Virus record (IMG/VR): IMGVR_UViG_3300009296_000003 | Span: 1-45,892 of that record | DNA length: 45,892 nucleotides | Origin: a virus | Direction: 5' to 3' (one strand) | Shown here: one piece after another, positions 7,456 through 42,558 of the stretch | Layout: each line of letters opens with the position of its first letter | How positions within the stretch are numbered: the first letter of the stretch is position 1 | Position numbers and translations under genes: made by a program | Notes under the pieces: generated by a model | Seen by the model: only the letters and a program-made list of their open reading frames with translations | Database searches by the model: none | What the model was told of the DNA's origin: nothing

Positions 7456-7515
7456 ATGAGCAAGCTGCTGGACGTCAAGGCGGCGGCAAGGGAGGAAAGA
7501 AAATGGACACACTGA
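7456..7515 (+). CDS. Possible leader mini-ORF (19 aa)
   Basis: A GGGAGG site precedes this ATG with normal spacing. The 19-residue product is basic and ends inside the first codons of the hexapeptide-repeat gene. It might couple or tune translation of that gene. It could equally be a decayed gene remnant, and nothing beyond the ribosome site supports it. Confidence 0.3.
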   Translation: MSKLLDVKAAAREERKWTH

Positions 7516-8147
7516 AAATCACAGCGGCGAACCGGGCGCAGTATGAGAACACAGCACTAGAATATGCGGGGCATGTTGAGATTGAGGCCGAGTTGGGATG
7601 GGTCACATTTGCATCCATCACAGCGACAGGATGGATACGTGCGTTCACTGGCACGGGCATCAAGGCTGGCACGGGCATCAAGGCTGGCGAGGACATCAAG
7701 GCTGGCACGGGCATCAAGGCTGGCACGGGCATCAAGGCTGGCGAGGGCATCAAGGCTGGCGAGGACATCAAGGCTGGCGAGGACATCGAGGCTGGCACGG
7801 GCATCAAGGCTGGCACGGGCATCAAGGCTGGCTGGGACATCGAGGCTGGCTGGGGCATCAAGGCTGGCGAGGACATCTCGGCGGGAGAAGACATCTCGGC
7901 GGGCTGTGGCATCTCGGCGGGCTGGGGCATCTCGGCGGGCTGGGGCATCTCGGCGGGAGAAGGCATCTCGGCGGGAGAAGGCATCTCGGCCAAGTTCCTG
8001 GAAGCGACGCTCCGCATATTCGCGGGGCTAATCAACAGGCGTCTACCGAAACCGGAAGAGACGGAGATCCGCGCAGAAATACGCAAGGGCATAGTGGCAC
8101 TGGGGACGGTGATCGCGGCGGCAAGGGAGGAGGGGAGGCGTGGATGA
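7503..8147 (+). CDS. Hexapeptide-repeat protein, probable beta-solenoid (214 aa)
   Basis: Residues 50-163 are 19 uninterrupted six-residue units of the form GxxIKA or GxxISA. A strict Ile and Ala every six residues with Gly at the turn is what a beta-solenoid built from short rungs needs; it resembles, but does not match, the acyltransferase hexapeptide pattern. The 49-residue N-terminus and the 51-residue C-terminus, which is basic and helical, are not repetitive and could be a docking head and cap. GGAGG lies upstream of the ATG. Possible roles are a structural rod, surface mimic or fibre, but its place in the early block argues against a main tail fibre. Function unknown. Confidence 0.75.
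   Translation: MDTLKITAANRAQYENTALEYAGHVEIEAELGWVTFASITATGWIRAFTGTGIKAGTGIKAGEDIKAGTGIKAGTGIKAGEGIKAGEDIKAGEDIEAGTGIKAGTGIKAGWDIEAGWGIKAGEDISAGEDISAGCGISAGWGISAGWGISAGEGISAGEGISAKFLEATLRIFAGLINRRLPKPEETEIRAEIRKGIVALGTVIAAAREEGRRG
7650..7991 (+). repeat. 18-bp tandem repeat, 19 units
   Basis: Exactly 342 bp of 18-bp units. The first 12 encode GxxIKA or GxxIEA (consensus GGCACGGGCATCAAGGCT) and the last 7 encode GxxISA (GGCTGGGGCATCTCGGCG). Positions 2-3 of each unit vary among TG, ED, EG, WD, WG and CG while the rest is nearly invariant at the DNA level. The two sub-blocks imply two separate expansions. The periodicity keeps other frames open, which produces spurious ORFs. Confidence 0.92.
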
Positions 8148-19689: not shown

Positions 19690-19748
19690 CGGCGCTGATA
19701 TGGATCGGCACCATCGTACTCGCGCTACTGGCTCTATTTGGACAGTGA
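19686..19748 (+). CDS. Membrane mini-protein (20 aa), end of the + operon
   Basis: The ATG overlaps the HNH stop (ATGA at 19686-19689). The 20-residue product is almost entirely one hydrophobic helix ending FGQ. Its last 15 nt overlap, tail to tail, the end of the giant - strand protein. Three other peptides of 25-40 residues with one hydrophobic helix occur in this window in the same coupled style, which supports it, but it is very short. Confidence 0.4.
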   Translation: MTALIWIGTIVLALLALFGQ

Positions 19749-22700
19749 CTTCTTTGGGATATCTGTCCTGTTGATGGCTAGCGCCTTGAAGACTTCCTTG
19801 TGAAGCTCAGGCGTCCATCCACCCTGCCACCCGGTCTTAACCCCGTCCTCGACAAGGACGCGAGCCAACTGAGCGAAGACATCGGGCATGCCAGTGAACA
19901 TTGCCAACGACAATGCCGCTGGCTGTCCGACTCTTTCCCATTTACCCTGCCCTGCGTTAGCCAGAGCCTTGATACCTGCCGTGAATGGCTGCGAAGAGTA
20001 CGGCGAGATGTTGAACATGAACCCACCGCCGGACTGAGTCATGATAGCCTGAGACACAACGTTTCCGAACACAGGCACGGAAGCAAATGGATACGCCAGC
20101 AAGTCCCTCCACCATTCATCCTCAGTAGGCATCCTCAATCTCCTGAATATCCCGGTAAGCATAGCTGGTATCACAACACTGAACGCTATCTGCTGCAATG
20201 TGCCGGGAACCAACTTCCCATCCCCTCCAAACATCGTACTTCCCAATCTTCCCGTCTTGACTGCATTGACTATTGGCATCAACACGTCGTACTGGTAGTG
20301 GTTGAACATGTTGAAGAAGAAGCTGGTGAACACAGTTATCTGATTGTTCCACTCGCTCTCCCTCTGGAACAATGACTTCTCGTGGGGGTTGGGGGTAGAC
20401 TGGGTCTTGGATATGACCTTGTTCGCATAGTCAGCAGCTTCCCTTTCAGCCTCTGCCCTGTTCATGGTCTTCTCATAGGCTCCCTGAGCCGCCTCAAACG
20501 CTGCCATCCAACCAGCCGCAATACTCCACATATCCATATCCGCCAATAGCGCCACGCTATGCTCTGCTATTGATTTTCCCTTGATGGTGATGTTGTTGCC
20601 AAGGCCCCGGCGTCTACCAGCAAGGATGTCGTTGATCATAACTGCATTGCCGTGCCTTGCCAGAACGTGAGGTGCCCACTTGTTGAGAATATCATACTCT
20701 TTGCATCCTTGTAATATGTGGAACGTGGACGCAACTTCGCTTTGACCATGAGTCAGTAGCCATGCCATGTTGCGAGACATTGCTCCGGCTATTGACATAG
20801 CATGCCCTATGGCAGACGGAACATTAGTGAATCCTCCGGGTATGAGACTGAAGATTGGAAGAGCACTCAGCGTTGTCTGGAGCATGGTCTTGAGTTTGAA
20901 GCCAAGCGGCGTGGCTTGAGCAACCGAGCGTATGCGCTGCAAGACCAACTCGGATGGTTTCAGTGGGGTGGTTCTGCCCATGGAGTACATTTCCCCAAGG
21001 ATTGAATCCCTGAAGTGGCCATACGTTCCGGCTCCGTGCTTGTGAGAGATAGCTTCCCTGACCTGAGTATTGTCAATGATGGAGATCATCTCTCCGAAGT
21101 ACTTGGCCTTGGCGATGTAGTTATTGGCGGTCCTCATGTCCCTTGCCACCACCGTCCTGAAGGGATCAAGTATCTCTATGCGTCCGCCTCTATTAGTTCT
21201 GGCATCGGCTTGCGGAAGTATGTTTGGCCTTCCGTCTCGCATGGTAAGCTTGTCCGGTGCCTTGTCAATAAGAGCCGCCGCGTCTCCCTCGTGGAACACT
21301 TGACTCTCTCTGACGATGCTGACATAGAACGGAACCTTAGGCAGATCGTGTCCGGTCATGTCGCGGAACACTGGATTGAGTTCATTGTACTTGCCTTCAA
21401 GGTACTTGTGCATGGCATCTGCCATTGCCCGTACGTGCTTGTCATTTGCGTACACCTTGAGAGCATCCATTAGAACGTCTATCGTAAGCTCGCTGTTTGC
21501 CTCCCTGAGCGAACTGGCCTGGGTGGTCAATGCGCTCTCCGTGCTGCCCTTGCAAGCTGCCGCCAAGTATGCGACGGTGTCGGCAGGGAACATGGTCTGG
21601 GCCTTGCCAAGCATGATTCCCTTGTTCTTTTCCTTGTGCGTAACTCCGGCAACCTTGAGCATTTCCTCAATCTTCTGTCCGTCTTCCCTGTTGAGCCTAC
21701 CGGACTCAACGATTCCAGCCCTCTGCCTCTTGCCAAACACCTTGTCGAATATCCCATCCTCAAGACAGCCGTCGAGATACTTGGTAAGGTACGAGAATGG
21801 GGCAAGGTACGTCTTAAAAGTCCTGGCTCCCTCCATGAATCTCTTTGCCCGAGACAACCACCCTGTGCCACCAGCGGCTCGCGATGCCTTTATCTGATCG
21901 GGGGAAACCTTCAAGAAGTTTAGTATCTTGTCTACTGTCTTCTGGTCTGCCTTGGGTATTGTCATCTTCTTGTTTGAGGTAGCTATGATGCGAAGCAGGT
22001 CCTCGGCAAGATCGCGATCCTCATTGTTGAGCTGAGACAAAGACCTGACCCCAAAGAAGGACTTGAGATAAGCACCAACTACTGACGAGTTGTCAAGATT
22101 GGGAATTAGACGGAACTTTGCGTCAAGCAACTTGCGCATTTCTATCTCGGTCATTGCGGTGGGCCTGTACTCTCTGCCAAGGATCAACAGTGACGCTTCC
22201 TTGATTCGCGCCAGAGTTTCTTTTCCGGAGTCTCCCTGCTGTTTGAACGCGCCGAACATAGCCCTGCCAAGTCTAGCCATGGAGGGAGTAAGCTTCTTCT
22301 TCTCGCCAGACGGTTCAGCTTCGGAGGACATGGGAGCCTCGGCCTCTTTGCGCATAGCATCCATCTTCTCGCCGTTGCGCTCAAGCATGGCAATCTTGTC
22401 CAGCACATTCTGATCCCATATGACGTAGTTGTAGGTAAGACTAGCCGATTTTTCAGCTTCTTGTCTTGTTTTGTAAGCCCCAATCAATGCGCCTTCCCGA
22501 TCAACTACCTCAAACCCGTTTGCTGATTCAAGTATTCGGTTCCTGCTAAATCCATCAAGGTATCGCTGGCCAGATATTCCAGCCCTAAGAAAGAACTCAG
22601 ACGCCTCGCGTGCCGACGGAAGCCTAGACTCAGCCGTATGATACAATGACTCTCCGGTGAAGTCCCTGCTCTTAGATACGAAACCAAGAGGACCATTGTT

Positions 22701-25700
22701 CTCTGATATGTTCTGAGATCGTAATTTGTTCAACATGTCAACAGGAACAGCGCTGTCCCAAGGCAATAGTTTTTCAACAATACCATCAGGAACGTCCAGC
22801 TTGTACAACGATCCGTCTCGTGGACTCATTTCAAGTTCTGATTCGTGTGCATCTATCCAGTCAATTGCTCGCTGAATCCTTTCCGCCGAAACGGAATACC
22901 TCTTCCTATCTTCGGAGGTTATATTCATGGAGTATTGATTCTTTGAATGGAACTCAAGGTCGTGTTTTTGATGCACGAGTTGAATTCTGGCTGGTGTTAC
23001 ATGCATGTTGTCAGGATCGAGTAATGCATCAAGGGCGTCTATTGGTATAATGTCCTTTAACGACGAATCGGAAAGATTAATCCCTTTCCACTTTTTGGTC
23101 GGAGACACAGCCCTGTAGGTTTCGGCAACTGCTGCGTTTTCTGCTCCATACCATCCCCATCCAAACGCAAGAGAACCCTCTCCTGTTCCGATGTAACTCA
23201 AATTTGGCCTGCCATGAGGGAACCCATCCTCTGCTTGCCATGTCTGTCCTCCATGGTATGCGTCTGAATTCATTGGCGCTTCCGCCACTCTGCCCATACC
23301 AACAGTTCTAAGGAACAAATCCCCATTGCCGTCAGTAGTGTCCAAGATACCGGCCATGATGCGAGCCACTGCCGGAAGAGTCTTGCTGCCGTTGGCCCCC
23401 TTTACCCTGTCGTATATCTGCAACATCTCCCTGTAGTTGGCTATGTCTGGAGCAGCGAAGAGATGCACATGGCTCATGGCCTCCATCAGCCTGTCCTTGC
23501 GATTTCCGTATGCATTGTCAAACAGTTTCTGGACGTACTGCATCAGTTCTACGTGCAGCTTGCGTCCGGCGTCATTGGCCATTGCGCTATTGAGAACTTC
23601 CTCGCCCTCTTCGGAGGCATGCTGCACCTCGGCAGGATCGTTACCGTTTTCAACTTGATCAATCAACTGGGCCAATGAAATCTGCTTCCCGGAGGCGGTC
23701 TCGGAAGATTCAATGCTCTCTTGGACTACCGTAGCAGCGGCTGCTTCGGTGGCGTCGGCCTCTACTCCGCCGAACAGTTTCTCAAACTCTATCTCAAGAG
23801 CGTTATTCAGCTTCATGTCCATGAACGCTGCGTCGTTGCCTATGTTAATAGCCTGCCTGCTCTTGGCGTACAGTGCGCTGAATGTTCCCCTGATAAACTT
23901 GAAAGCATTAGTCAGGTTCTCGTCCGCGCCTTCTGGAAGGTATCCTTCATGAATGTATGCAGTAAATGCATTGGCGCAATTCTCTTTGAATATCATCATC
24001 TCAAAGCGCGTCATCTTGTCAAGACTCTTACCGCCAGCAAACCTGGCTACAAGCGCCTCGAACATCGACGCAGGTAGCAGGTCTCGTGACATCAGGTGAT
24101 GAAACCACTCATGCAGCACGGTTCCTGGTTCTGCGTTGGCGTAGAAGATGGCCAAGTTGTACTCTGGAAGATACTGACCGAACAGCCTGCTCTTGTCTAC
24201 TGCGCCCTCCATAGCCTCGCTGGACAGGACATCTTGCGGGTACTGGAATGGCTTGCCATTGAAATCAACTGTGTCAACTGGGTTGAGTTCTGCCTTCTTG
24301 CCAGCCCTGTACCAGTCCATGATGGCTTTGTTCGCAAATTTGCGAAGATGAGAAGGCCACTTGCCGGACTCCGTAAATGCCCTGAGGCGGGCTTGCATGG
24401 CCAGGAGGGACGCCTGTGCAGGTGTCTTCCTATCGCCCTTCCTGAGGGCATCCAGGCGCTTCTGAATCGATTCTGAGGCCCTCTTAGCAGCGTCTGCCAG
24501 GGCCACGTTCTCGGAGTCTATCTGAACATGTCTCTGTTCGGGGGTAAGACCCAAGGCGGGGAAGGTGTCGGTCATTGATTTGCCGTTTATGAAAATCTCC
24601 AAAGCCTCGCCAAGGACGCCTCTTCGGATGTTGCTCATGGCCTCTGCGTGTCCTGCCTGACGAAGAACTCTGTCTATGTCCTCTATGGTTCTTTCTCCAC
24701 TGAGAACCTTTCTGGCCATCTCTGCTGCCGTCTTCTTGACATAGCTGCTTGCGCTAGTTGGTATTGCTTCTGCGCTTATCGACGGAGGAGTGACGGTTCC
24801 TGGCTTGCTCTTGGACAGAACCCTACGGAATTCATCCGCAATGAAAGGGGCCAACCTGCCCTGAACAGCAGGATGCTCCGGTGAAAGCACCCGGACGTTT
24901 CCAAGATGATCAACTACCGCCAAACCAGATTGAACCCATACACCCTTGCGCAGAGCATTGCGAACAGAGCGTTCTCCGGGTGCCTCTCCAACCACAAGTC
25001 CGTTTAGGCGCACGTCTTCCAGGTTCTTTCGTTCGGCTTCCTGTTTGTTCTGCTCCTCAATCTGTTGCAGTTTCTCGACGGAGCGCATGGCGTCCGGGTC
25101 GTTCTTCTTGATGGCCTCAAGGATTCGTCCTCGTTCCTTGGTGTTGGCCTTCTTGACTCCTTCGGCATCTGCCACTGCATTGGCAAGAGACTTCATCTCT
25201 ACCTCGGACATCTTGGAATGAGCAGCGGTCACGGCCTCTGCTCCGGCTGGCTGCGAACCTATCCATTCAAGTATGGCTGGATGGGCGGCCATTTCCCATT
25301 GAGCAGATTCGGCCTTCTTGCGAGCCTGTTGTTCCTGCTGCGCAAGGGGAACCCTTGTTCCTGCCTCTGCCTTCTTTCGCTCGACTCTCGACTTGTCCAC
25401 TTCGGCCTGTTCTTCTGGAGTCCTGACGATGTTGCCCACATGATTGGTGAGCCATTCCAGAACGGCAGGATTGGAGGCTACCTCGAATCCTTCCTGCTCC
25501 AGTTGCTGCACTTGCTCCACCAGTTTCTCCAGCATGATCCTCTTTGTATTCTGTTCGACATCGTTGATCATGGACGACAGGCCAAACTGTTTGTCAAGAT
25601 ACTTGAACAGTTCAGAGTTGGCCCTCTTTGGATCGGGAAGGGACTGTAGTCTTTTGATTTCGCTTTCCTGTTCGGGGGTAAGCGGTTGATTGATGAACGC

Positions 25701-27053
25701 CATCCTGAATTTGTTAATGTACTCAATGGCGCTCTTCTTGGAGTCTTCGCCAGAGGAATATGCCACGTTGCGCATGATCTCGGCCAGTCCAGAACCGGCA
25801 TCCTCTCCGAAGCGCTGAACAAGGACAGTGCGAAGTTCGTTGAACATGGTATCGGCGGCCTGAAGCTGTGAGGCCGCGTCTGACCCAACGCCCGGTAGTG
25901 CTGCTTGAAACTTGGTATGGTGCAGCAACTTCTCGTCGGTGTTGAGAAATCTGGTGGCCTTATTAAAGAAGCGCTGCTGACTCACGGCGGAATGAACGGA
26001 ACCTATTGCCATAAGGAAAGACCCGAGTCCTCCATCAACGGCGCTTTGAACGTATTCCCCTGGACTGCTCATTGGAGTATCCAGAAGGTAGTTCCTTGTT
26101 ATTTCGCTTGAGAGCATTTGGACGGGGTTTTCCACTCCCTCTCTAAGCACGTTTATGGCCCAGGCCTTAGCACCAGCCGAAATAGGAGACCTTTGCAGTC
26201 CCCTGACCATAGCCGAAACACCCTTGCGCGGCACTCGGTTTAGGGCAGCCTTGAGAGACCTTGCCTTAGCAAGCCTGCGAACGATATTAACCTCACCTCC
26301 ACCGAACGGAATAGCCTCTACCGCAGCCTCGGCACTAGATTCCCAGAGAGCTTCAAACACCTTCTCGTATGGGTCAAGTTTGCCTCCGGCAAGAGAGTCG
26401 ATTTCTTCCAGTTTCTGCCCATAGTTCCTGATAAAGGCCCCGGCGAAGCCGCCAAGAGCAGACAAAAGAGTCAGTCCGGCTGCGGAAGTGGCTGGTATAG
26501 CGGCCAAGGCAGCGCCTCCCATTATTACAGCGCTAGTTGGAGCAGCCGATCCCGCCAGGTATCCTAATTCTTCGCGCCACCACTTTCCTCCGGTTGGCCT
26601 ACCCAGAGCAGGGTCCTTCAAGATGGAGTCGAACCTATCGGTAGACTTGCCCGTGAAAGCATAGTTAACTGACTTTGCCATGCTGGCCGAATCGGTCAGA
26701 AACCCAGCCAAGAAGGAACTGGCGAATCCTTTTGCTTCTGGAGTGATGTATCCTTTGGCGGCGGCTTCGTCAGACTGCAAGTACTGATTCATAGCCGTGG
26801 AAACGGCACCATTCGGCAGCATACCTCCGGCCAAAGTTGTGTCTCGTGTGTCGAAATTCTTCTCTGGCAGCCTCTCTGGAAGGCCAGTGAGCGAGTTCAT
26901 GGCTACGCCGTTGTCTTCCGTGTTTAAGGCTTGACGTTCTTCAGGGGATTCTGGATTGGGCGTAATGTCGAGTTTTATTGCCCGTGAAACAAAGTCCTTC
27001 TTTGGTTTCTCGTCCTCTTGGTCCAGCGTTATGTCTGAGTCGAATAGATTCAT
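19734..27053 (-). CDS. Giant polyvalent protein (2,439 aa) with metallopeptidase and ART-like domains
   Basis: A long multi-domain protein of the polyvalent type, probably packaged and injected. A hydrophobic Gly/Ala stretch lies at about 165-215, a charged Gln/Glu-rich helical part at 490-690. H981-E-W-F-H985 in VLHEWFHHL is an HExxH metallopeptidase signature. Y1266-H1267-G and GWGWY (Y1302) with a later YVIWD near 1535 match the ART-PolyVal ADP-ribosyltransferase group. The C-terminal 800 residues are helical with hydrophobic segments near 2050-2110 and 2290. ATG overlaps the upstream stop (ATGA). Roles in takeover of the host are inferred; family residues are seen, activity is not shown. 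Confidence 0.82.
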   Translation of the reverse strand: MNLFDSDITLDQEDEKPKKDFVSRAIKLDITPNPESPEERQALNTEDNGVAMNSLTGLPERLPEKNFDTRDTTLAGGMLPNGAVSTAMNQYLQSDEAAAKGYITPEAKGFASSFLAGFLTDSASMAKSVNYAFTGKSTDRFDSILKDPALGRPTGGKWWREELGYLAGSAAPTSAVIMGGAALAAIPATSAAGLTLLSALGGFAGAFIRNYGQKLEEIDSLAGGKLDPYEKVFEALWESSAEAAVEAIPFGGGEVNIVRRLAKARSLKAALNRVPRKGVSAMVRGLQRSPISAGAKAWAINVLREGVENPVQMLSSEITRNYLLDTPMSSPGEYVQSAVDGGLGSFLMAIGSVHSAVSQQRFFNKATRFLNTDEKLLHHTKFQAALPGVGSDAASQLQAADTMFNELRTVLVQRFGEDAGSGLAEIMRNVAYSSGEDSKKSAIEYINKFRMAFINQPLTPEQESEIKRLQSLPDPKRANSELFKYLDKQFGLSSMINDVEQNTKRIMLEKLVEQVQQLEQEGFEVASNPAVLEWLTNHVGNIVRTPEEQAEVDKSRVERKKAEAGTRVPLAQQEQQARKKAESAQWEMAAHPAILEWIGSQPAGAEAVTAAHSKMSEVEMKSLANAVADAEGVKKANTKERGRILEAIKKNDPDAMRSVEKLQQIEEQNKQEAERKNLEDVRLNGLVVGEAPGERSVRNALRKGVWVQSGLAVVDHLGNVRVLSPEHPAVQGRLAPFIADEFRRVLSKSKPGTVTPPSISAEAIPTSASSYVKKTAAEMARKVLSGERTIEDIDRVLRQAGHAEAMSNIRRGVLGEALEIFINGKSMTDTFPALGLTPEQRHVQIDSENVALADAAKRASESIQKRLDALRKGDRKTPAQASLLAMQARLRAFTESGKWPSHLRKFANKAIMDWYRAGKKAELNPVDTVDFNGKPFQYPQDVLSSEAMEGAVDKSRLFGQYLPEYNLAIFYANAEPGTVLHEWFHHLMSRDLLPASMFEALVARFAGGKSLDKMTRFEMMIFKENCANAFTAYIHEGYLPEGADENLTNAFKFIRGTFSALYAKSRQAINIGNDAAFMDMKLNNALEIEFEKLFGGVEADATEAAAATVVQESIESSETASGKQISLAQLIDQVENGNDPAEVQHASEEGEEVLNSAMANDAGRKLHVELMQYVQKLFDNAYGNRKDRLMEAMSHVHLFAAPDIANYREMLQIYDRVKGANGSKTLPAVARIMAGILDTTDGNGDLFLRTVGMGRVAEAPMNSDAYHGGQTWQAEDGFPHGRPNLSYIGTGEGSLAFGWGWYGAENAAVAETYRAVSPTKKWKGINLSDSSLKDIIPIDALDALLDPDNMHVTPARIQLVHQKHDLEFHSKNQYSMNITSEDRKRYSVSAERIQRAIDWIDAHESELEMSPRDGSLYKLDVPDGIVEKLLPWDSAVPVDMLNKLRSQNISENNGPLGFVSKSRDFTGESLYHTAESRLPSAREASEFFLRAGISGQRYLDGFSRNRILESANGFEVVDREGALIGAYKTRQEAEKSASLTYNYVIWDQNVLDKIAMLERNGEKMDAMRKEAEAPMSSEAEPSGEKKKLTPSMARLGRAMFGAFKQQGDSGKETLARIKEASLLILGREYRPTAMTEIEMRKLLDAKFRLIPNLDNSSVVGAYLKSFFGVRSLSQLNNEDRDLAEDLLRIIATSNKKMTIPKADQKTVDKILNFLKVSPDQIKASRAAGGTGWLSRAKRFMEGARTFKTYLAPFSYLTKYLDGCLEDGIFDKVFGKRQRAGIVESGRLNREDGQKIEEMLKVAGVTHKEKNKGIMLGKAQTMFPADTVAYLAAACKGSTESALTTQASSLREANSELTIDVLMDALKVYANDKHVRAMADAMHKYLEGKYNELNPVFRDMTGHDLPKVPFYVSIVRESQVFHEGDAAALIDKAPDKLTMRDGRPNILPQADARTNRGGRIEILDPFRTVVARDMRTANNYIAKAKYFGEMISIIDNTQVREAISHKHGAGTYGHFRDSILGEMYSMGRTTPLKPSELVLQRIRSVAQATPLGFKLKTMLQTTLSALPIFSLIPGGFTNVPSAIGHAMSIAGAMSRNMAWLLTHGQSEVASTFHILQGCKEYDILNKWAPHVLARHGNAVMINDILAGRRRGLGNNITIKGKSIAEHSVALLADMDMWSIAAGWMAAFEAAQGAYEKTMNRAEAEREAADYANKVISKTQSTPNPHEKSLFQRESEWNNQITVFTSFFFNMFNHYQYDVLMPIVNAVKTGRLGSTMFGGDGKLVPGTLQQIAFSVVIPAMLTGIFRRLRMPTEDEWWRDLLAYPFASVPVFGNVVSQAIMTQSGGGFMFNISPYSSQPFTAGIKALANAGQGKWERVGQPAALSLAMFTGMPDVFAQLARVLVEDGVKTGWQGGWTPELHKEVFKALAINRTDIPKKSLSK

Positions 27054-29749
27054 CCCAAACCTCCTGCCTGAACATGCTTAAGCATAGTCTCCATTGCCTC
27101 AATGAACTCGTCGTGACTCTGGTCATGAATGTCACGCCTGCGTTCCTTGATGTGGTTTATGCCCCTGGCATCCTTGAAGCCAAGTCCCCTTGGTCTAGTA
27201 ACCAAGGCGGAACCCCACGTCTGTCCCAGTGTTTGGATCAGTAAACCAGCGGCGTTGTCTGCCATCTCTCTGGGCACCCAAGTATTACTGATTTCTTTTG
27301 CTAGGCGTATAGCGTATTGCTCTGCAAGGTCGTCGTCATCTGTCATTGCCGGAGCAGGAGAACCAACAATGTCACGATACACTTCTTGGATAGCTTCAAT
27401 TCCTGATAGTTCAGTGACGGGAGAAGGTTTCAGGAGAACTGACTTCGTTTCTATATTGATGTTTTCCTTGACGTTCTCTCGTGCAAGATAATACGCCAGA
27501 GCCGCTATGTTCTGCGGATCAAATCCGCTTTTCTTGTCGTTGATTATCGACTCAAGACCGCTGTATACCTTAGCGTCAACTCCACTGAGTTCTTTTGGTA
27601 GAGCATCCGACAGTTTAACCGGCTTGTCAGAGCTGAACTGTTCCTGAATACTATCCATATATCGCTTAAACACTCCTCTTGCCATGGCATTTGGCATGCC
27701 GCCAGCAACGAACCCCGCCCCACCTTGAAGAACGTTTGGAACATCAGAAAGGTAATGACCCTCGTTAACATGGCCCCTGACTATCCTGCCTCCGTGAACC
27801 TCGGGCATGCCAACACCCAGGTTATCCAATGCTGAACGCATGGCTACTTGTGATTCTTCCGGTTTGCCATTGAGAACATTAGAAATCCATCCGGCTTCCA
27901 TTGTCTGGGTCGGACCATGAAACACCCATCCCTGTTTACGCTGAACGTCAGGAGGACTGACGTACTGCGCCGCATTGGTCTTGCCGAACAGTTCTTCGTC
28001 TCTCTTCTTCTGTGCGGCACGCTCTTGTGCTCCAATGGTAGAGTACGCCAAGTTGAAGCGAGTTGTCAGTTCTTGGTGAAGAGACCGAAGGGCTGCGAAT
28101 TCAGCCGTGTTGTCGGACATGTCTTCTGCGTTTCCTCCAACGTACCCAGCCAACTTGTCTCCTATGATATGTCTCTGTAAAGGGGTAACGTTAGAAAATA
28201 GATTAGACAAGATGTACTCAGCGGCCATGACGTTGGTTGGCTTGTCTTCGTTGGTACGCATTTCTCCAAGAACAATGGCCTCGGCCAGAGTTTCTGGCAT
28301 TACGTTGTCGATACTGGAGGCATACTTGGTCATAGTTTCTCCTATGACCTTCAACTGTTCGGCCTGATGCGCAGACGCCTTGGCGCTGAGACTGTTATTC
28401 TCTACGTCTCGTGCTTGGCTTTCAAGTCTGGAGGCTACGTCATTAACATCACCCTTTGCAACACCCTGATCTATCAGATTCTGGGCAACTTCCGTTGGTG
28501 ACTTACCTGAACGGATCAGGTTAACCTCGCTGGTAACGTCTCCGGGTATGGTTGTGGCAGCCTCTGCACTGGAGGCGGCAGCAGGCTTTCCGACCAGGTT
28601 GGCATTGCCACCAAGCAGTTTGGCTGTTTCGGGGGTAAAATGCTTACTCTTCTGTTCGGTGACTATGTTGCCATACTGCCTCAATTCTGCTTCGGCAGCA
28701 GTCTCTCGAACCGCCTTTGTGATGTCAACCAACTGCAACTGTCCACCCTCGACTACGTATGAACCCGGAGGCGGGGCTGCATTGTAATCCTTCCAAGACC
28801 CTTCCTTGGCTTCGTAGTCTGCCTTGGCCTGTTCTTCGTCAATTCCTCTAGTCTTGGCCCATGACATATACGGGTCTTTGTTCATTTTGTAGGCAAGGTC
28901 TATGTTCTCTTCTGTCAAGAGGCGAATCTGAGATGCAGTTCCGGAAGCCTTCTGTAGATAGTCCGGCTTCATGGCATTGATTCTATCGGCAGCAAAGGCA
29001 ATGGCAGCTTCCGGCTGGTTAACTCCCTTGAAAGCTTCGCGTATCTTGGCATGCATCTCGGCATTATCAATCGGTGGATGTTCCGCTATTTTCTTCTTGA
29101 GTTCACCAAGTCCAGCGGCCACGTTCTGGTCAAACACCTTCCTTGACTGTTGTATGCCGGCAAACTGCTCGTTAGAGAAGCCGGTTCTGTTCTGTCCGGG
29201 CTTCCTCGTGGAGCCAACCGTGAACAATGTGTTGATGTCTTCTGGAGATGCGGTTACGTCCTTGCCTCCAGCAAGGGCCTTGGCCGCCCTGTCAACGGAC
29301 GCCAGAACATCAAACTTGCCCTTGGTCGCCAGTTCGTTATTGTGCTGGATAGCGGCCATCCTGGCCATTGCGCCTACGGTATTGAGTCGATTGCGTTCAT
29401 TGACGGCGTCTTGGTCAGCCTTGCGCTGGTCTATGATTTCCTTAACGCGAGCTTCGTAGACAGCCTGAGCATCCTGCCGACCCAGGTTATCCATGAAGAA
29501 TTGCTCCATGGATTCAGGGGTGGGGGCCATCTGTGGAGCGCCCTTGGTCATACGACCAGACTCGTCTCCAATAACAGACTTGGTCATGGCTCCGGTTGCG
29601 GCATTGGTTCCGCTGGCAAAGAACGAACCTGGACGCATGACGTTTGGATCGGTTCCTCGCTTGACGCCCATGAATTGGTTGAGGTCTTGTTCGTTGAATC
29701 CAGCGGCCTGAAGGTCGCCGTACGTATAGGATGCTTTTGTCTTGGCCAT
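27050..29749 (-). CDS. Large helical virion-associated protein (899 aa)
   Basis: An Ala/Glu/Gln-rich, largely helical protein without Cys-rich or enzymatic motifs that I can see. It is directly upstream of and coupled to the giant polyvalent protein, where internal core or ejection proteins of phages commonly lie. A polar N-terminus and long charged helices would suit a scaffold or injected protein. GGGGG precedes the ATG at a suitable distance. I do not recognise the family; internal virion protein is the best inference. Confidence 0.6.
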   Translation of the reverse strand: MAKTKASYTYGDLQAAGFNEQDLNQFMGVKRGTDPNVMRPGSFFASGTNAATGAMTKSVIGDESGRMTKGAPQMAPTPESMEQFFMDNLGRQDAQAVYEARVKEIIDQRKADQDAVNERNRLNTVGAMARMAAIQHNNELATKGKFDVLASVDRAAKALAGGKDVTASPEDINTLFTVGSTRKPGQNRTGFSNEQFAGIQQSRKVFDQNVAAGLGELKKKIAEHPPIDNAEMHAKIREAFKGVNQPEAAIAFAADRINAMKPDYLQKASGTASQIRLLTEENIDLAYKMNKDPYMSWAKTRGIDEEQAKADYEAKEGSWKDYNAAPPPGSYVVEGGQLQLVDITKAVRETAAEAELRQYGNIVTEQKSKHFTPETAKLLGGNANLVGKPAAASSAEAATTIPGDVTSEVNLIRSGKSPTEVAQNLIDQGVAKGDVNDVASRLESQARDVENNSLSAKASAHQAEQLKVIGETMTKYASSIDNVMPETLAEAIVLGEMRTNEDKPTNVMAAEYILSNLFSNVTPLQRHIIGDKLAGYVGGNAEDMSDNTAEFAALRSLHQELTTRFNLAYSTIGAQERAAQKKRDEELFGKTNAAQYVSPPDVQRKQGWVFHGPTQTMEAGWISNVLNGKPEESQVAMRSALDNLGVGMPEVHGGRIVRGHVNEGHYLSDVPNVLQGGAGFVAGGMPNAMARGVFKRYMDSIQEQFSSDKPVKLSDALPKELSGVDAKVYSGLESIINDKKSGFDPQNIAALAYYLARENVKENINIETKSVLLKPSPVTELSGIEAIQEVYRDIVGSPAPAMTDDDDLAEQYAIRLAKEISNTWVPREMADNAAGLLIQTLGQTWGSALVTRPRGLGFKDARGINHIKERRRDIHDQSHDEFIEAMETMLKHVQAGGLG

Positions 29750-29755
29750 AGTAGC

Positions 29756-30790
29756 TTACCCCCTGAGTACATGTTCAAAAACTTGCAGCCACTTTGAATA
29801 GGTCTGGCTGATGTCGTATTGCTTGATGACCTGCATGCGTGCCCTGAATCCCAGACTGTCTCGTAACGCTTGGTCCTGCACGAGTTTATCCAGCCTGTCG
29901 AACCACTCGTCTTCATTAGATGCCAGAAATCCGGTGCTCCCGTCAACTATGGATTCATACGGTTCCAACTTGCTGGCTACAGTAGGGATGCCAAGACAGG
30001 AATAATGTAGAAATTTTACGTTGGACTTCGAGCGATTAAACAGGTTGTCTTCCAATGGAGCAATACCTATGTCGCAATCAACCATGGACATTGGAAGCAC
30101 GTTGATCTCGTTCCAGCCCTCTATATGCACCCTGTCGGGATGCTCCTTGGCAACGAGTTCTATGGCTTCCTTCTCAAACACCCCCATGAGCGTCAGGTGC
30201 ACATTCTTGTGCTTGTCCATGATCTTGTTGATTGGATTGACGATAATTGGCATGTCAAGGTTGTGAGACCCTGAGGCGAACCACATGATATTGATTTCAT
30301 CGTCCTTCTTCTCCGTCCTGAGGAGCAGTCTCTCGGTGAAGGCATAGTTGTTTTGCTCTACATCAAGCGAATTAGGAAGCACGAAGATAGGTTTGGACGT
30401 GAGCTTTGCTACCTGTTGAGCCAGGAATACAGTGGACACCGTGACGGCATCTACGCTGGCAAGGAATAGCCCTATTGTCTCTCGCACGTCCTTGCGGCCA
30501 AAGAACTGGTATGGTATAGAGAACTTCTCCGGCAGATTGAACAGGTCATCGTCAAGGTCGTAGATGCACTTGATGCCACGCTCTCTGGCAAGGTGCATCT
30601 TAGCAAGGGCCACCGGGTCTGTCTGGCGCTGGAATACAAGAACGTTGGCGAGCAGGAAGTCCGAGGACATCATGTTGAGCTTTGCGTCTATGTGGACATT
30701 TGGACATCTGGCGTTGATTTCCCTGGCTATGAGTTCACCCCTGATGTGTCCGCAGCAATGCAGGTCGCTCAAGTACATCTTGACGTTCAT
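29756..30790 (-). CDS. Glycosyltransferase, GT4-like
   Basis: The 344-residue protein carries typical group 1 glycosyltransferase signatures in its second half: WFASGSHNLDM (about 170), CDIGIAPLEDNLFNRSKSN (240-258), GIPTVAS (about 266) and GSTGFLA. The E-x7-E region of classical GT4 enzymes is only weakly matched. It transfers sugar from a nucleotide-sugar to an acceptor, perhaps virion protein, phage DNA or host surface glycan. AAGGAG precedes the ATG. Its insertion among virion genes is unusual and suggests glycosylation of a structural protein. Confidence 0.8.
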   Translation of the reverse strand: MNVKMYLSDLHCCGHIRGELIAREINARCPNVHIDAKLNMMSSDFLLANVLVFQRQTDPVALAKMHLARERGIKCIYDLDDDLFNLPEKFSIPYQFFGRKDVRETIGLFLASVDAVTVSTVFLAQQVAKLTSKPIFVLPNSLDVEQNNYAFTERLLLRTEKKDDEINIMWFASGSHNLDMPIIVNPINKIMDKHKNVHLTLMGVFEKEAIELVAKEHPDRVHIEGWNEINVLPMSMVDCDIGIAPLEDNLFNRSKSNVKFLHYSCLGIPTVASKLEPYESIVDGSTGFLASNEDEWFDRLDKLVQDQALRDSLGFRARMQVIKQYDISQTYSKWLQVFEHVLRG

Positions 30791-36838: not shown

Positions 36839-37528
36839 CTATTCTATTGGTATCTCGATGGCAGCGCCACCGACGTAGTATTGCTTCCAGTCAGAAACGG
36901 TCAGGCGTCCGTGGCCATGACATCCAAAATTGTCGCCCCACTGGTTCTCGAAATTGACGAAGTTTGGACTGCCCTTGGTCAGGTCGAATCCGGAACCAAC
37001 GACCAAGTAGTATCCTACTATGGTTCCTTCGTTGTGAATAAGGCCATCGTGTCCCGTAAGGTTCCAACCTTCTGTTACCGAGTAACAGGACAGCACCAGC
37101 ATGTAGTCTTGGATAGCGTACTGGTATTCCTCAAGGGTTCTGATGTTGTGCATCTTCGACAAGGCCGGGATGTATCCCAAGCGCTTGCCGGAGGTAAAGG
37201 CTGCTGCTATAGTGGTGCCTTCCTCCCCTTGACTTCCATCGTCCTTCTTGGCTTCCTTGTACCATACGGAAGGATCGGCCAGGTCATCCACCAGGACATG
37301 CGTTCTTTGCCACCTAATCGCCTCTAGGAGCTGTTTGAACCCGTAGATGACACACCAGGGGCGGGTCCCTTGGTTCTCTGCTGGAGGGCAATCTCGGCGG
37401 TTATCGATGACTGGTTTAGGGTCCCATGATGCATCTATTGACAATGGTCTAGTAGAACGAAAGATGATGTCGTTCATGTTGCCAGTGATTACCGGACCTA
37501 CTGGGTACTTGCCTGCAAGCATGTACAT
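36839..37528 (-). CDS. Papain-like (C1A-type) protein lacking the usual His
   Basis: ATG 37528 follows GGGAG at 7 nt; a longer frame to 37633 overlaps a lipoprotein gene and is judged spurious. Residues 45-64 match the papain Cys block (oxyanion Q53, C59), and NQWG (195-198) matches the Asn block. The His block aligns as VGYYLVVGS (171-179) with Tyr or Gly where papains have His-Ala. Nearby H160 or H165 might substitute; otherwise it is a binding or inactive protein. Context (lipoproteins, membrane protein) suggests a role in the host wall or envelope. Confidence 0.7.
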   Translation of the reverse strand: MYMLAGKYPVGPVITGNMNDIIFRSTRPLSIDASWDPKPVIDNRRDCPPAENQGTRPWCVIYGFKQLLEAIRWQRTHVLVDDLADPSVWYKEAKKDDGSQGEEGTTIAAAFTSGKRLGYIPALSKMHNIRTLEEYQYAIQDYMLVLSCYSVTEGWNLTGHDGLIHNEGTIVGYYLVVGSGFDLTKGSPNFVNFENQWGDNFGCHGHGRLTVSDWKQYYVGGAAIEIPIE

Positions 37529-37532
37529 AGTT

Positions 37533-37670
37533 CTACTCCCATGGCTCTTGTGGCCACTCTGGCGTCCACCAAGTATGCTGTGATGGTTCAGGTACATCTT
37601 CCTGAACTCTCGGAGTGCTGCAACTGCATACACATACCACGCAAATGAGTGCTATAGCAACGCGAATCAC
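37533..37670 (-). CDS. Small lipoprotein (45 aa), GTG start
   Basis: GTG overlaps the stop of the upstream gene (GTGA) and follows GGGGAGG at correct spacing. A hydrophobic run from residue 4 ends in VCSC, a lipobox with Cys17 as the lipidated residue. The mature part is short, with Pro, Glu and Trp (WWTPEWPQEP). Its size and setting recall Rz1-type outer-membrane spanin lipoproteins, but no Rz-type partner is certain. It ends 4 nt before the papain-like gene. Confidence 0.6.
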   Translation of the reverse strand: MIRVAIALICVVCVCSCSTPRVQEDVPEPSQHTWWTPEWPQEPWE

Positions 37671-38578: not shown

Positions 38579-38667
38579 AGCTTCCTCCAGCCTCTCGGCA
38601 AATCCTTGTCCGCACACCACAGCGCCACGCATAGGCACGCGGCAAAGATGATCATGGCAAGGGTCAT
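38575..38667 (-). CDS. Membrane mini-protein (30 aa)
   Basis: ATG overlaps the stop of the LamG protein gene (ATGA) and its own stop overlaps the GTG of the lipoprotein gene (GTGA). Residues 2-18 are hydrophobic with two Cys, followed by a charged tail (DKDLPRGWRK). Perfect coupling on both sides is good evidence for translation; function unknown, perhaps holin- or spanin-like. Confidence 0.5.
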   Translation of the reverse strand: MTLAMIIFAACLCVALWCADKDLPRGWRKL

Positions 38668-39608
38668 GGTCGTGCCTCAAGATTGTTCGTGGGGTGCGTA
38701 TGCGTCACGATATTGGTCAACTGCGGCAGGGTTGGCAACGTGGTGTAAACACGCACGTCATCAAGTGTGCCGAGGAAATAATAGGGGTAGCTTGCCCAGC
38801 AGGAACGTCCGATTGCCGCCGAGTCCACACCGGCAGTCAGGAAGTATTGGTGCATCCATTTCGTGTATGCCGCGCCGAGATCATAGGCATCCCCGCCGCC
38901 AACCCCATTGATGTAGAGTTTTGTTTTTGTCCCATCCTGAAGCCACGCAAGGTGATACCACGTCCCCGCCGTGAACGTGTAGGCGTCTGAATCGCGGTAC
39001 ATCCATGTCCCATTGGTCTGTGCCCATCCCGCGTATGATGTTTTCAGCACGGTGTGCAGGTCCATGTTGTAGATGTCGCCTCCGATTTTACCAAGACTGA
39101 ACACGGTGCCGGGATTTGCCCCTGCGCCCGATATTTTCACCCATGCCATGACCGCGCCGGATGTGCAATCAAGTCCGTTTGTGCCTCCAAGCATCCACTG
39201 AGTCGTACCGTTGAAAGAATATGCGTGTTCAACGCGACCCTCGCTGTTTGTGCCAGTGATAACCTGCGCCGGTCCATTTGTCGCGTAGGGCTTGAGCGCC
39301 ATGTGATTTGACGCCGTACCCACGTCCAGCGTGGATGTCGCGTTGGTGCCCTCCATGTCCCAGACAGAGACGCGTCCAGATGCCGTATCGGTCCAGTATG
39401 GTGAAGACGCCGCATGGCTGTACCATGCCCACTGCCCACTCGGGCCGATGATGTTCCCAGCCTGCGCCGTGAGGGAGCAAGCGAGCAGGACCACGTAGTA
39501 GGGTAGCCAGTGCCCGCTCCGGACGCGCCGGATCATGATACGCATCCCGTGATACCCCAGCCACGCGCCAAGCACTATAGACGAGCCTATGAGGAAGACT
39601 TCAGTCAT
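38664..39608 (-). CDS. Membrane-anchored LamG/ConA-like lectin protein (314 aa)
   Basis: ATG 39608 follows GGAG six nt upstream; the longer frame to 39701 overlaps the spike gene. Two hydrophobic segments (about 2-18 and 36-50) precede a LamG-like jelly-roll: VWDMEGTNATSTLDVG, YSFNGTTQWM, AVMAWVKI, GTWYHLAWLQDG and LGTLDDVRVY. Such domains bind glycans. Membrane helices on a lectin suggest display on the host envelope or a virion membrane contact, rather than a classic tail fibre. Confidence 0.75.
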   Translation of the reverse strand: MTEVFLIGSSIVLGAWLGYHGMRIMIRRVRSGHWLPYYVVLLACSLTAQAGNIIGPSGQWAWYSHAASSPYWTDTASGRVSVWDMEGTNATSTLDVGTASNHMALKPYATNGPAQVITGTNSEGRVEHAYSFNGTTQWMLGGTNGLDCTSGAVMAWVKISGAGANPGTVFSLGKIGGDIYNMDLHTVLKTSYAGWAQTNGTWMYRDSDAYTFTAGTWYHLAWLQDGTKTKLYINGVGGGDAYDLGAAYTKWMHQYFLTAGVDSAAIGRSCWASYPYYFLGTLDDVRVYTTLPTLPQLTNIVTHTHPTNNLEARP

Positions 39609-39609
39609 G

Positions 39610-42558
39610 CTATTCTCCGAAATATTGAATCGTTGCCCAGAAGTTTGTACACGTCGCGCCGCGTTGCCGCAGCTTATACCCGCTTGTCCTGTTCGCCGCA
39701 TTGGTCTGCGCCGTCCATGTCGTGCTGCTCATACCGGTGGCAGGCAGGACGAAAGAACCATTAGTTGTGAGCGTCATGCTGTTGGTCGCAAAGGAAACGA
39801 CATCGAGCGTAACCGTCGATGCGAATGAGCCGCCCCAGATTTTGTAGTACTTCCCCGCACTGGGCCTGAAGCCGAACTTCGTGATGTTGAACACGTTCTG
39901 GGTCACAGGCCCGCCGAGGTCGAAGTATTTGAATGACTGTGGCCCGGACGGGGTGTTGGCAAGCGCATACGGCTTGGTTTCTCGCAAACAATTGTTTCCA
40001 TAGATAAGGTTCGTTACGGACGAGGCATCTTCCTGTATCCCCGCAGTGTCGTGTCCAAGACTGATATTGTTCGCCACGAGGTTCGGCAACGTGCCGCCAG
40101 TTATGATATGGATTCCGCGTTCGGATAAATTCGCCAAACTAGTGCAATAATTCCCAACCACAGTTGCGCCAGATTTGACCTGTATATCGTTGTAGGTGTT
40201 CCCGTTTGCGTAGACATAGTTTCCCATCACCTGTCCGCCATCATTGACTTGTATACCATGTCCTGTACACACCCACACATAGTTGCCAATGGCACTTGCC
40301 CCGCTGTTCAGGTATATACCGGCAGTTGATGCTGCCGTAACCCAACAAGAGTTTACGGTAGTGCCAAGCCCGATCGCCCCTATTCCATATGTGCCTCCCG
40401 ACACGTAACAGATATTCACCCTGCTGTACTTTACGGCGACTCCGTATCCATCGTTGGCCGATAAGCTACAGTCAGACACGGTGTTTTGCTGACCCGCGAG
40501 AGATATGCCGTCGTCATCGCAGTTCTCGACCCGAGAGCCGGTTATTCGCCAGCCAAGTTGCTGGTCGTTTGAACTACCACGGATGCCGTCATTGTCAGAT
40601 GCGGAAATGTAAACATGCTCTATTCTGATGAAATCCTCATTCGCACTCGCCCCGTTGATGATGTCAAACGCCGTCACGCCCGCCTTGTTGCCCCTGAGCT
40701 GCATATCCTTGATTGTCGTGTTCGCAAACCCACCAAGCTGGATCAGGTGGTTCGTCTGATTCGGCGCATTCAGCACCGTGCCCCACCCCGCGCCACGCAA
40801 GGTCAGGTTGGATGTAGGTATCGTTATCGTGATATTCGAGCAATTGTATATCCCCGCAGGCATGTAGATTTCGTCGCCCGCGTTTGCCAGTGCCAGTGCC
40901 GCCTTGATGCCCGTGCCGCTGAGGTTTGTCACGCAGATGGACTTCCATTCCAAGTAAGCCAAGTCGTTGGTGGCCACGCCGCCGCTACTCGCGGGCAGGT
41001 TTGTCAGGCCGGAGCCATCGCCAACAAAGAGGGCGTTGCTCTGCGTGTTACCCCAACAGTCCACGTTACCCGATGTACTATCAAAGGACCATCCACGCAG
41101 ACCATCCACCTTTCTCAGCGAGAACTTACTGCCTGCCCCAGTATATGTTTTGGGATGAACAATGATTTCACCAGCAACATTGAAGGCAAGTCCTTCTTCG
41201 GCATTGCGGGTAAGCAGAATACCGCCGTCTGAACCGGTTTCACCAGAAGTCATAGCCGAAAGTATCATAGATTTTAGGTTGGTTGCGCTAGGTCGCAGTC
41301 CCGGTATTTGGACTTCAGTAATGTCACCAGTTTCCGAATACAAAAAGGACTTTGCTCGTATCGTTCCACCATTCGTCTGCCCGCCCGCGTTGTACATGTC
41401 CAGCGCCCGCACACGCGCATTGGTGAGGCTCGCCCCGCCCATGTTCACGCCCCCGCTCAACGTCAGTTTGTTCGTAGCCGTGGCCCCGCGATTCGCCACC
41501 GTTTGAAGCGTGTCGGATTCGGCAGTCAGCCAAGGCGCATTTGTGATGTTCGCGCCGTTGCGATACCACGCGCCCTGCTGTCCATCGAATGTGCCGGTCC
41601 AGTCGCCGGTTGTGGTCAGGTTCGTCAGGTTCACGCCATTGTTCACTGCCAGCACTTGCAGGTCCGCATCGAGCCGCGCATTCGCCACCGTGCCGGTCAG
41701 TTGTGCCGCGTCGTGATAACCCTGTGCCGCTATCCATGTCGGGCTGATCCAGTTGGTGTTGAACGTCACCCTCACCAAGTTGCCCACCTTCGCCACCTGA
41801 TTACTCGTGGACTGAACCGCAGGCAGGACGTTGGTCAGGGCACCGACCGCGTTGCGCACGGCGGAGGTGGATAGGCCAACAATCGGAACAGGACCAGTGC
41901 CACTGGTTATGGTAAGCAATCCACCCGACACAGTAACTGCGGTTATGTCTCCGGCTATTGAATCTCCCCAATAGTAACTGTATCGACTGGTGGCGAAAAG
42001 GGTTTGTCCAGCAGTGGGTGAATTGGTGGGAAGCAACATGAATGGCCAATTGGTAAACGTGCCAGTGAAAGTATATCCAGCGCCTCCGTTGATCTGAATT
42101 GTAGTAGGAAGAGCCGCTGAAGCATTGATCTCGGGAGAACGATTGATGGTAATAAGTCCACGACAGTATGAAACTGGAACTGAGCCTGTTTCCACGAGGA
42201 CTACGGCATACCACTTGTCTACGGGGCGACTAAAGCTGTTGGTGGCTGGATAGAAGTCTATGGTACTGTTACTGGCAATGCCAGACACGGTGGTTAGCGA
42301 ACCGGTGACGGTGGTCATTGCGGACTGACTGTCGTCCTTGGCGAACTTGAACTTATACGTATACCCCCTGGCATCCCAGTAGTTGGTGCCAGACTTCATG
42401 GTAGCCCTTACGATAGGGCGATTCATGACGGCGGTATCTACGTGAAATTGGTTTCCCTTCTGCTGAATGTCGCAAGAGATGTCTTTGCGAGGACGTTCTC
42501 CGTAAAGGGAAACAACGGAGACCAAGAGAGACAAGACTACTGAAGCGAATCGACGCAT
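39610..42558 (-). CDS. Parallel beta-helix tailspike-like protein with Sec signal peptide (982 aa)
   Basis: GGAGG precedes the ATG. The N-terminus is a Sec signal peptide (basic, then VVLSLLVSVVSL). The middle (about 200-560) has repeated Asn/Thr-rich strand turns and short Gly motifs, and residues about 560-880 show the right-handed beta-helix pattern (repeated Gly-Ile and Asn ladders: GDEIYMPAGIYN, DDGISLAG, NDGYGVAV). The C-terminus is again strand-rich. Beta-helix spikes cleave or bind surface polysaccharide. A cleavable export signal is not expected for a normal virion spike. Confidence 0.75.
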   Translation of the reverse strand: MRRFASVVLSLLVSVVSLYGERPRKDISCDIQQKGNQFHVDTAVMNRPIVRATMKSGTNYWDARGYTYKFKFAKDDSQSAMTTVTGSLTTVSGIASNSTIDFYPATNSFSRPVDKWYAVVLVETGSVPVSYCRGLITINRSPEINASAALPTTIQINGGAGYTFTGTFTNWPFMLLPTNSPTAGQTLFATSRYSYYWGDSIAGDITAVTVSGGLLTITSGTGPVPIVGLSTSAVRNAVGALTNVLPAVQSTSNQVAKVGNLVRVTFNTNWISPTWIAAQGYHDAAQLTGTVANARLDADLQVLAVNNGVNLTNLTTTGDWTGTFDGQQGAWYRNGANITNAPWLTAESDTLQTVANRGATATNKLTLSGGVNMGGASLTNARVRALDMYNAGGQTNGGTIRAKSFLYSETGDITEVQIPGLRPSATNLKSMILSAMTSGETGSDGGILLTRNAEEGLAFNVAGEIIVHPKTYTGAGSKFSLRKVDGLRGWSFDSTSGNVDCWGNTQSNALFVGDGSGLTNLPASSGGVATNDLAYLEWKSICVTNLSGTGIKAALALANAGDEIYMPAGIYNCSNITITIPTSNLTLRGAGWGTVLNAPNQTNHLIQLGGFANTTIKDMQLRGNKAGVTAFDIINGASANEDFIRIEHVYISASDNDGIRGSSNDQQLGWRITGSRVENCDDDGISLAGQQNTVSDCSLSANDGYGVAVKYSRVNICYVSGGTYGIGAIGLGTTVNSCWVTAASTAGIYLNSGASAIGNYVWVCTGHGIQVNDGGQVMGNYVYANGNTYNDIQVKSGATVVGNYCTSLANLSERGIHIITGGTLPNLVANNISLGHDTAGIQEDASSVTNLIYGNNCLRETKPYALANTPSGPQSFKYFDLGGPVTQNVFNITKFGFRPSAGKYYKIWGGSFASTVTLDVVSFATNSMTLTTNGSFVLPATGMSSTTWTAQTNAANRTSGYKLRQRGATCTNFWATIQYFGE

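Follow-up and report, generated by a model that had tools for sequence, protein, structure and literature searches.

IMG/VR virus record IMGVR_UViG_3300009296_000003, a 45,892-base viral contig that was analyzed over its whole length (the window), raises the question of what a phage would do with a protein of 2,439 residues. The initial annotation placed this giant at 19734-27053 without giving a strand, and described it as a polyvalent protein with HExxH peptidase and ADP-ribosyltransferase (ART)-like signatures, in a gene position often seen for ejection proteins. The open reading frame (ORF) is confirmed: it lies on the minus strand, AGGAGG is found upstream of its ATG, and the plus strand of the same interval is full of stops. 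The protein groups with phage polyvalent proteins, as had been proposed. Our analysis indicates that the phage is probably podovirus-like, that the giant is probably the final and largest of its ejection-type proteins, and that it would be packaged and injected with the DNA, carrying a zincin and an ART-like domain into the host.

The two motifs originally noticed in one chain, VLHEWFHHL and YHG...GWGWY...YVIWD, are present at residues 979-987 and 1266-1547. The latter consists of YHG at 1266-1268, GWGWY at 1298-1302, and YVIWD at 1543-1547, and the pattern HG...GxGE...GxGxY occurred in none of 2000 shuffles of the giant protein. Residues 1265-1573 match a 3,002-residue protein of MetMV by tblastn (35%, in two pieces; the aligned ART domains are 43% identical), and a similar region is found in the giant protein of vir555, a virus of Methanomicrobiales. 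An alignment of these three sequences recovered at least 411 relatives among 599 pattern-matching IMG/VR stretches. The best 80 of the 411 were retained, some of which are near-identical (L005/L006, L021/L022, and L074/L075). A first conservation count covered the window and 68 relatives (69 rows) and left out 14 wide-envelope matches. The subsequent A3 alignment holds 70 of the 83 available rows, with redundant or truncated rows and the MetMV and vir555 records (L002 and L003) left out. Invariant in these 70 domains are His1267, Gly1289, Gly1291, Glu1292, Gly1293, Gly1298, Gly1300, Tyr1302, Tyr1313, Tyr1417, Gly1495, Arg1504, Asn1542, and Val1544. The conservation of GTGEG and GxGxY is partly a product of selection because the search patterns contained one or the other; Asn1542, His1267, and Arg1504 were in none of the patterns.

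The AlphaFold model of the ART-like domain, built with the 70 rows, has a mean predicted local distance difference test score (pLDDT) of 79.7 and a predicted template modeling score (pTM) of 0.67, and it places His1267, Tyr1302, and Asn1542 on strands. The top PDB match after realignment of 976 Foldseek candidates was 9k3a_B, a chain of the cyanophage A-4L pre-ejectosome (Z 10.6, root-mean-square deviation (rmsd) 3.7, 146 residues aligned), with a Z score far above all other realigned rows. A comparison with the predicted viral structures of BFVD gave 18 matches at E 0.001, among them two annotated as ART-PolyVal-like and one as PolyVal ADP-ribosyltransferase. These data support, by prediction, an ART-like fold for residues 1265-1573. 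The name 'ADP-ribosyltransferase' is a call of fold and motif, not of activity, because the third residue of the triad is Asn. A PDB sequence search with the ART alignment returned only HIV gp41 constructs, aligned to a repeat-like helix, and these matches were judged to be due to chance.

The peptidase motif is weak evidence alone, and HExxH arose in 106 of 2000 shuffles of the giant protein. A profile built from the zincin segments of nine relatives gave the window a whole-protein score of 16.7 bits and a domain score of 11.7 bits, compared to 5.6 for the best of 200 shuffles, and the iterated profile gave 21.8 bits compared to 5.2 for the best shuffle. These segments included the ART tail, which contributes part of the whole-protein score. 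In a 43-row alignment (A7; the window and 42 relatives, drawn from 33 of 45 non-redundant zincins plus nine from the earlier set), H981, E982, H985, E1024, and A1027 are invariant. The zincin model has an overall pLDDT of 67.7 and pTM of 0.60, and pLDDT reaches 80-91 across most of the core. Two successive long helices of the model hold HEWFH (helix 97-110) and Glu1024 (helix 137-157). The top 13 of the 50 structural rows listed are zincins (Z 4.2-5.3), among them the anthrax lethal factor peptidase domain (Z 5.3, rmsd 3.8, 91 residues aligned), PPEP-1, PPEP-2, PPEP-3, and PprI. Excerpts from Iyer et al. (PMC5512222) report a lethal factor resemblance for the zincin of the N4 virion RNA polymerase (vRNAP). 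The prediction thus supports a zincin fold for residues 955-1067. The initial annotation hinged on whether prediction would return ART and gluzincin folds, and both are supported by the models.

The two domains occur together in the giants. HExxH is found in 26 of the 35 ART-bearing ORFs of at least 1900 amino acids, where shuffling predicts 1.08, and in none of the 35 ART-bearing ORFs shorter than 700 amino acids. At the sequence level, this pairing among giant relatives is far beyond chance. The order is variable, with 13 motifs before the ART and 15 after; HExxH comes first in the window, MetMV, L004, L012, and L050. The predicted ART-like and zincin-like folds give the window protein two domains of unrelated activity in one chain, which is how polyvalent proteins are defined.

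The gene order of the relatives points to a role in ejection. Residues 2130-2410 of the giant match vir555, and residues 2190-2345 match phrog_9880, which is present in 18 of 28 records. Iterated vir555 profiles link 16 ORFs, including the window giant (2156-2358), out of the 66 large ORFs of relatives plus references. An IMG/VR search with the C-terminal pair alignment (A2) found no relatives. In vir555, the tail proteins phrog_394 and phrog_376, the internal virion protein phrog_418, and a 566-residue protein precede the giant. PHROGs assignments give the same series in L007 and L044, where phrog_394, phrog_376, phrog_418, and a gp15-sized protein come before the giant, and gene sizes are comparable at six further loci, judged by ORF length alone. 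In the phages checked, the giants thus come after tail tubular A/B and internal virion protein genes, the place of T7 gp16. The order gp14-like, gp15-like, and then a larger gp16 is described as usual in review excerpts, which also state that the peptidoglycan hydrolase domain shifts between gp15 and gp16. The best structural match of the ART-like domain comes from a comparable place: 9k3a_B is identical to A-4L gp27, and the gp27 gene is a late, minus-strand gene that follows one annotated 'internal protein'. The pre-ejectosome structure is reportedly the subject of a 2025 PNAS paper, cited in PMC12810830. The two proteins differ in that A-4L gp27 has 1,717 residues with the ART-like fold near its C terminus and is followed by a separate 1,114-residue gp26, and phmmer detected no sequence similarity between gp27 and the window giant.

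Several results weigh against the proposal that the giant is an ejection protein with these two domains. The zincin is weak by sequence alone because a deeper, narrower profile scored the window at 5.7 bits compared to 5.0 for the best of 200 shuffles. The window protein matched no Pfam family at E ≤ 0.01, ART-PolyVal (PF18760) included, whereas 49 of the 70 ART-like relatives match ART-PolyVal at that threshold. Foldseek comparisons of the ART-like and zincin models with the PDB gave nothing at E ≤ 0.001 and only helical noise; neither ART nor zincin structures are in these lists, an absence that does not exclude either fold. The PARP15 match to the ART-like model (Z 5.7, rmsd 3.5, 110 residues aligned, spanning model positions 3-308) is tied with unrelated helical rows that cover only the insertion, and Z scores of 5 to 6 fall in the range that the alignment tool flags with a warning. 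The third triad residue is Asn and not Glu, Asp, or Gln. Family-library searches detected no transglycosylase or peptidoglycan domain in the giant or the 899-residue protein. The late proteins of the window do not resemble those of A-4L or vir555, except for the giant with vir555. When the 308-, 625-, and 899-residue proteins were set against alignments of tail-tube A, tail-tube B, and gp15-like proteins, the profile-comparison probabilities were below 1%. The ejection assignment therefore comes from the relatives of the giant and not from its neighbors in the window, where its place resembles that of gp16 only in following an 899-residue gene without a recognized family. The earlier proposal is supported with this reservation: relatives' gene order, the C-terminal module, and the pre-ejectosome chain agree with it, but the window neighbors are unrecognizable as tail or ejection genes.

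These neighbors leave room for a different assignment, in which the phage is a siphovirus or myovirus and the giant is its tape measure, or another long-tail protein, that acquired polyvalent domains. A 157-residue ORF has a weak tail-assembly-chaperone match (E 0.0027), a family commoner in long-tailed phages and a further point against an ejection role. Tail-tube A/B and gp14 are not recognizable in the window, and MetMV, whose giant has an ART relative and HExxH in the same order, has no gp11/gp12-like genes in the stretch scanned. Yet the closest relatives with full genomic context that share the C-terminal module have a T7-like gene order, and the giant gene lies at the end of its run, not in the middle. 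We regard a long-tail origin as distinctly unlikely.

The ORF, its family, the gene order of its relatives, and, by prediction, the two folds are shown here; the way such an ejection protein would work is proposed. The giant would be packed in the head core and leave the virion by threading, either together with the DNA or ahead of it. Hydrophobic segments toward its N and C termini, of which 174-208 is the strongest, may insert it in the host envelope, leaving the zincin (approximately 955-1067) and the ART-like domain (1265-1573) exposed in the host. Like T4 Alt, the ART-like domain would most likely use NAD+ to modify a target in the host, and the zincin would most likely cut the giant chain into working pieces or cleave a host protein. 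Packaging, injection, catalysis, targets, and the division of labor between the ART-like and zincin domains are proposed here by analogy with the systems of Iyer et al., T4 Alt, T7 gp16, and A-4L. If this is correct, in many short-tailed phages and at least one methanogen virus the final ejection protein is more than a DNA conduit, and a protease and an NAD+-using domain would enter the cell within the first seconds of infection. The A-4L pre-ejectosome offers a structural frame for the place of such a domain in the virion.

A narrower role for the zincin is that of a self-processing protease only, which would free the ART and other parts during or after packaging. Self-processing has been proposed for polyvalent zincins, including that of phage P1 DdrB, in the excerpts from Iyer et al. 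(PMC5512222). The window zincin is flanked by long unassigned stretches, and its position relative to the ART varies among relatives. Against this stand the lack of a known cleavage site or processed product for the giant and, according to the same excerpts, the fact that N4 vRNAP and ArdC/TraC1 remain full length. A purely self-processing zincin is quite possible, but we put its chance somewhat below even.

The Asn of the triad bears on whether the ART-like domain is an enzyme. Across 82 ART-like domains (the best-scoring matches plus two phages, with some near-duplicates), the position of the PARP Glu is Asn in all 82, and the window motifs read HGG / YGA / TYN. A later position, Asp1547 in the window, is D in 46, P in 32, N in 3, and S in 1. 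The isolates phiGT1, Tunturi_5, and LS06-2018-MD07, found by tblastn, retain the Asn. The GxGEG loop is near-universal; the first search pattern is absent from 26 of the 82 domains, of which 25 keep GxGEG and L045 is truncated there. PARP1 reads HGS / YFA / YNE, the last residue being the front-edge Glu of strand 5, and PARP15 is H-Y-L (excerpts from PMC7955679). Polyvalent-protein ARTs are described with H, Y, and a strand-5 D in the excerpts from PMC5512222, and other review excerpts name an H-Y-[EDQ] clade. These schemes were equated by motif and strand order, not by superposition. The window domain has the His on strand 1 and Tyr on strand 2 of the Tox-ART-HYD2 clade, with both residues invariant, but its strand-5 front-edge residue is Asn, presumably where the clade has its strand-5 Asp. 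A literature search that included portions of PMC5512222, PMC9503650, and PMC7955679 did not return an H-Y-N triad, which is not a claim that the triad is unpublished.

Pfam searches of 32 records separate two types of domain. One gives long matches over most of the 140-position ART-PolyVal profile, and most domains of the GxGEG/Asn type match only positions ~8-46, the first third. We read the GxGEG/Asn domains, on these profile matches, as a distinct subfamily related to ART-PolyVal; by the same sequence comparison, the window domain is a relative and not a member of PF18760. Canonical ART-PolyVal and GxGEG/Asn-type domains adjoin in one protein in L044, L056, and PP885688.1 (L177). Relocation of the acid, with the GxGEG Glu compensating for the strand-5 loss, was considered and lacks clear co-variation support because the equivalent residue, compared by eye, is Glu in only two of six canonical ART-PolyVal domains and otherwise variable.

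The uniform Asn poses the question of whether H-Y-N is a working ART site, an NADase, or a binding site only. The giant could be an enzyme-dead structural protein whose folded but inactive ART-like and zincin-like domains contribute to the packing or assembly of the ejection core. The Asn in every domain fits such a protein, as do the Thr that A-4L gp27, a component of the solved core, shows by eye at the PARP Glu position and the unfixed order of HExxH and ART. However, the 70 divergent rows show no variation at His, the GxGEG Glu, two Tyr, Arg, or Asn, which has the look of a working site, and HExxH with its third Glu is invariant in 43. Moreover, mono-ARTs with Leu, Ile, or Tyr at this position exist, namely PARP15, PARP6/8, and PARP16 (excerpts from PMC7955679). 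A wholly inactive giant is unlikely on this evidence. The subfamily may, at the other extreme, be a widespread, active, phage-borne H-Y-N ART lineage, perhaps with the GxGEG Glu replacing the strand-5 acid, that podoviral ejection proteins bring into bacteria and methanogenic archaea; we hold this broader proposal to be tentative and somewhat doubtful. A stand-alone ART-like protein of the subfamily is encoded by phage phiGT1 gene 5 (L176, 4918-6081), between the portal and scaffold genes, and is possibly a small head-packaged version.

The combination of ART and zincin and its likely role have been known since 2017, and the structure of a pre-ejectosome containing such a fold has been solved; the less expected element is the Asn-triad subfamily, which merits a biochemical test. 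The polyvalent proteins in the excerpts from Iyer et al. (PMC5512222) share with the window a single giant chain, an ART-like domain with an HExxH zincin, and an apparent location on the late-gene side. They differ in the strand-5 Asp that the paper names where the window has Asn, and the window falls below the Pfam ART-PolyVal cut-off. Large polyvalent proteins are almost all bacterial in those excerpts, whereas the relatives found here include archaeal virus giants. Two ART and HExxH giants belong to methanogen viruses: MetMV (L002, 6970-15978, 3,002 residues) and vir555 (L003, 4928-10852, 1,974 residues). The vir555 protein (DBA35080.1) and phrog_9880 share with the window giant the ART-like domain, HExxH, the C-terminal module, and a T7-like gene order; the vir555 protein is shorter and has HExxH after the ART instead of before it. 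The giant of MetMV, a Methanosarcina virus (AZF89913.1), has HExxH upstream of an ART-like domain with the same signature, but it is longer and ends in LPD38, which was not found in the window. T7 gp16 and the N4 virion RNA polymerase are the last and largest ejection proteins of their operons, the place proposed for the window giant, and the N4 type also has a zincin (excerpts from PMC5512222), but no transglycosylase or RNA polymerase domain was detected in the window giant. An N4-type virion RNA polymerase was rejected after Pfam, PHROGs, and NCBIfam gave no single-subunit RNA polymerase match.

Table 1. Features of the giant protein gene and its surroundings, in window coordinates
Feature	Position	Strand	Basis
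Giant polyvalent protein ORF, 2,439 codons	19734..27053	-	Open frame; start overlaps upstream stop
AGGAGG, ribosome-binding-site-like, 6 bases 5' of ATG	27060..27065	-	Read directly
899-residue ORF directly upstream, positioned like the gene of a gp15-like ejection protein; no recognized family	27050..29749	-	Position only
Residues 174-208, hydropathy maximum of the chain, possible membrane segment	26430..26534	-	Hydropathy
Zincin-like metallopeptidase domain core (predicted), residues 955-1067	23853..24191	-	Profile, model, and structural matches; narrower profile near noise
HEWFH, residues 981-985	24099..24113	-	Both H and the E invariant across the 43-row alignment
Glu1024, presumed third zinc ligand	23982..23984	-	Invariant A7 column, 43 rows
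ART-like domain (GxGEG/Asn subfamily; predicted), residues 1265-1573	22335..23261	-	tblastn, profiles, AlphaFold model, structural matches
His1267, triad position 1 (strand 1)	23253..23255	-	Invariant; model strand 9-15
Glu1292 in GTGEG loop	23178..23180	-	Invariant in A3; ascertainment caveat
Tyr1302, triad position 2 (strand 2)	23148..23150	-	Invariant; model strand 47-50
Asn1542, strand 5 front edge, Glu in PARPs	22428..22430	-	82/82 domains; model strand 287-291
C-terminal module common to vir555 and phrog_9880, residues 2130-2410	19824..20666	-	Sequence matches

The layout of the locus agrees with the original description of the giant as the last gene downstream of an 899-residue protein, which is true of the minus-strand gene run; its ATG at 27053 overlaps the stop codon of that gene. 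The minus- and plus-strand runs converge at ~19.7 kb, where composition skews switch sign, and a search for an intergenic terminator between them gave one weak match, equal to chance expectation. The record may be a genome fragment because no exact terminal repeat of at least 15 bases was found in it. Hydropathy has a peak of 1.55 at 2281-2303 in the C-terminal part besides the stronger one in Table 1. Most giants have their hydrophobic maximum within the first 500 or last 450 residues, a post hoc observation made without a proper control.

No close whole-protein relatives of the giant were found in IMG/VR, and a PDB sequence search with it gave no match. Family-library and profile searches found no relative of the 899-residue protein, and the 625-residue neighbor has no close IMG/VR relatives. 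The contigs of metagenome-assembled genomes closest to the GxGEG/Asn subfamily are in Planctomycetota, Verrucomicrobiota, and Pseudoxanthomonas bins (3 of 44 pattern stretches), a mere hint of host.

Other genes in the window have recognizable features. A 344-residue glycosyltransferase (29756-30790, minus strand; Glyco_trans_1_4, E 6.8e-10) lies within the late run between the unassigned 616- and 899-residue genes. Also among the late genes is a 264-residue protein (36839-37633, minus strand) with a match to the peptidase family phrog_16701 (E 3.2e-10). The ORF at 38664-39701 (minus strand) encodes a Laminin G-like (concanavalin-type) domain (E 3.9e-12), and the adjoining 982-residue protein has, by eye, the look of a tail fiber or beta-helix. 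The plus-strand ORF at 7503-8147 consists of many near-identical GIKAG/DIKAG-type repeats, is open in several frames, and may encode a repeat protein.

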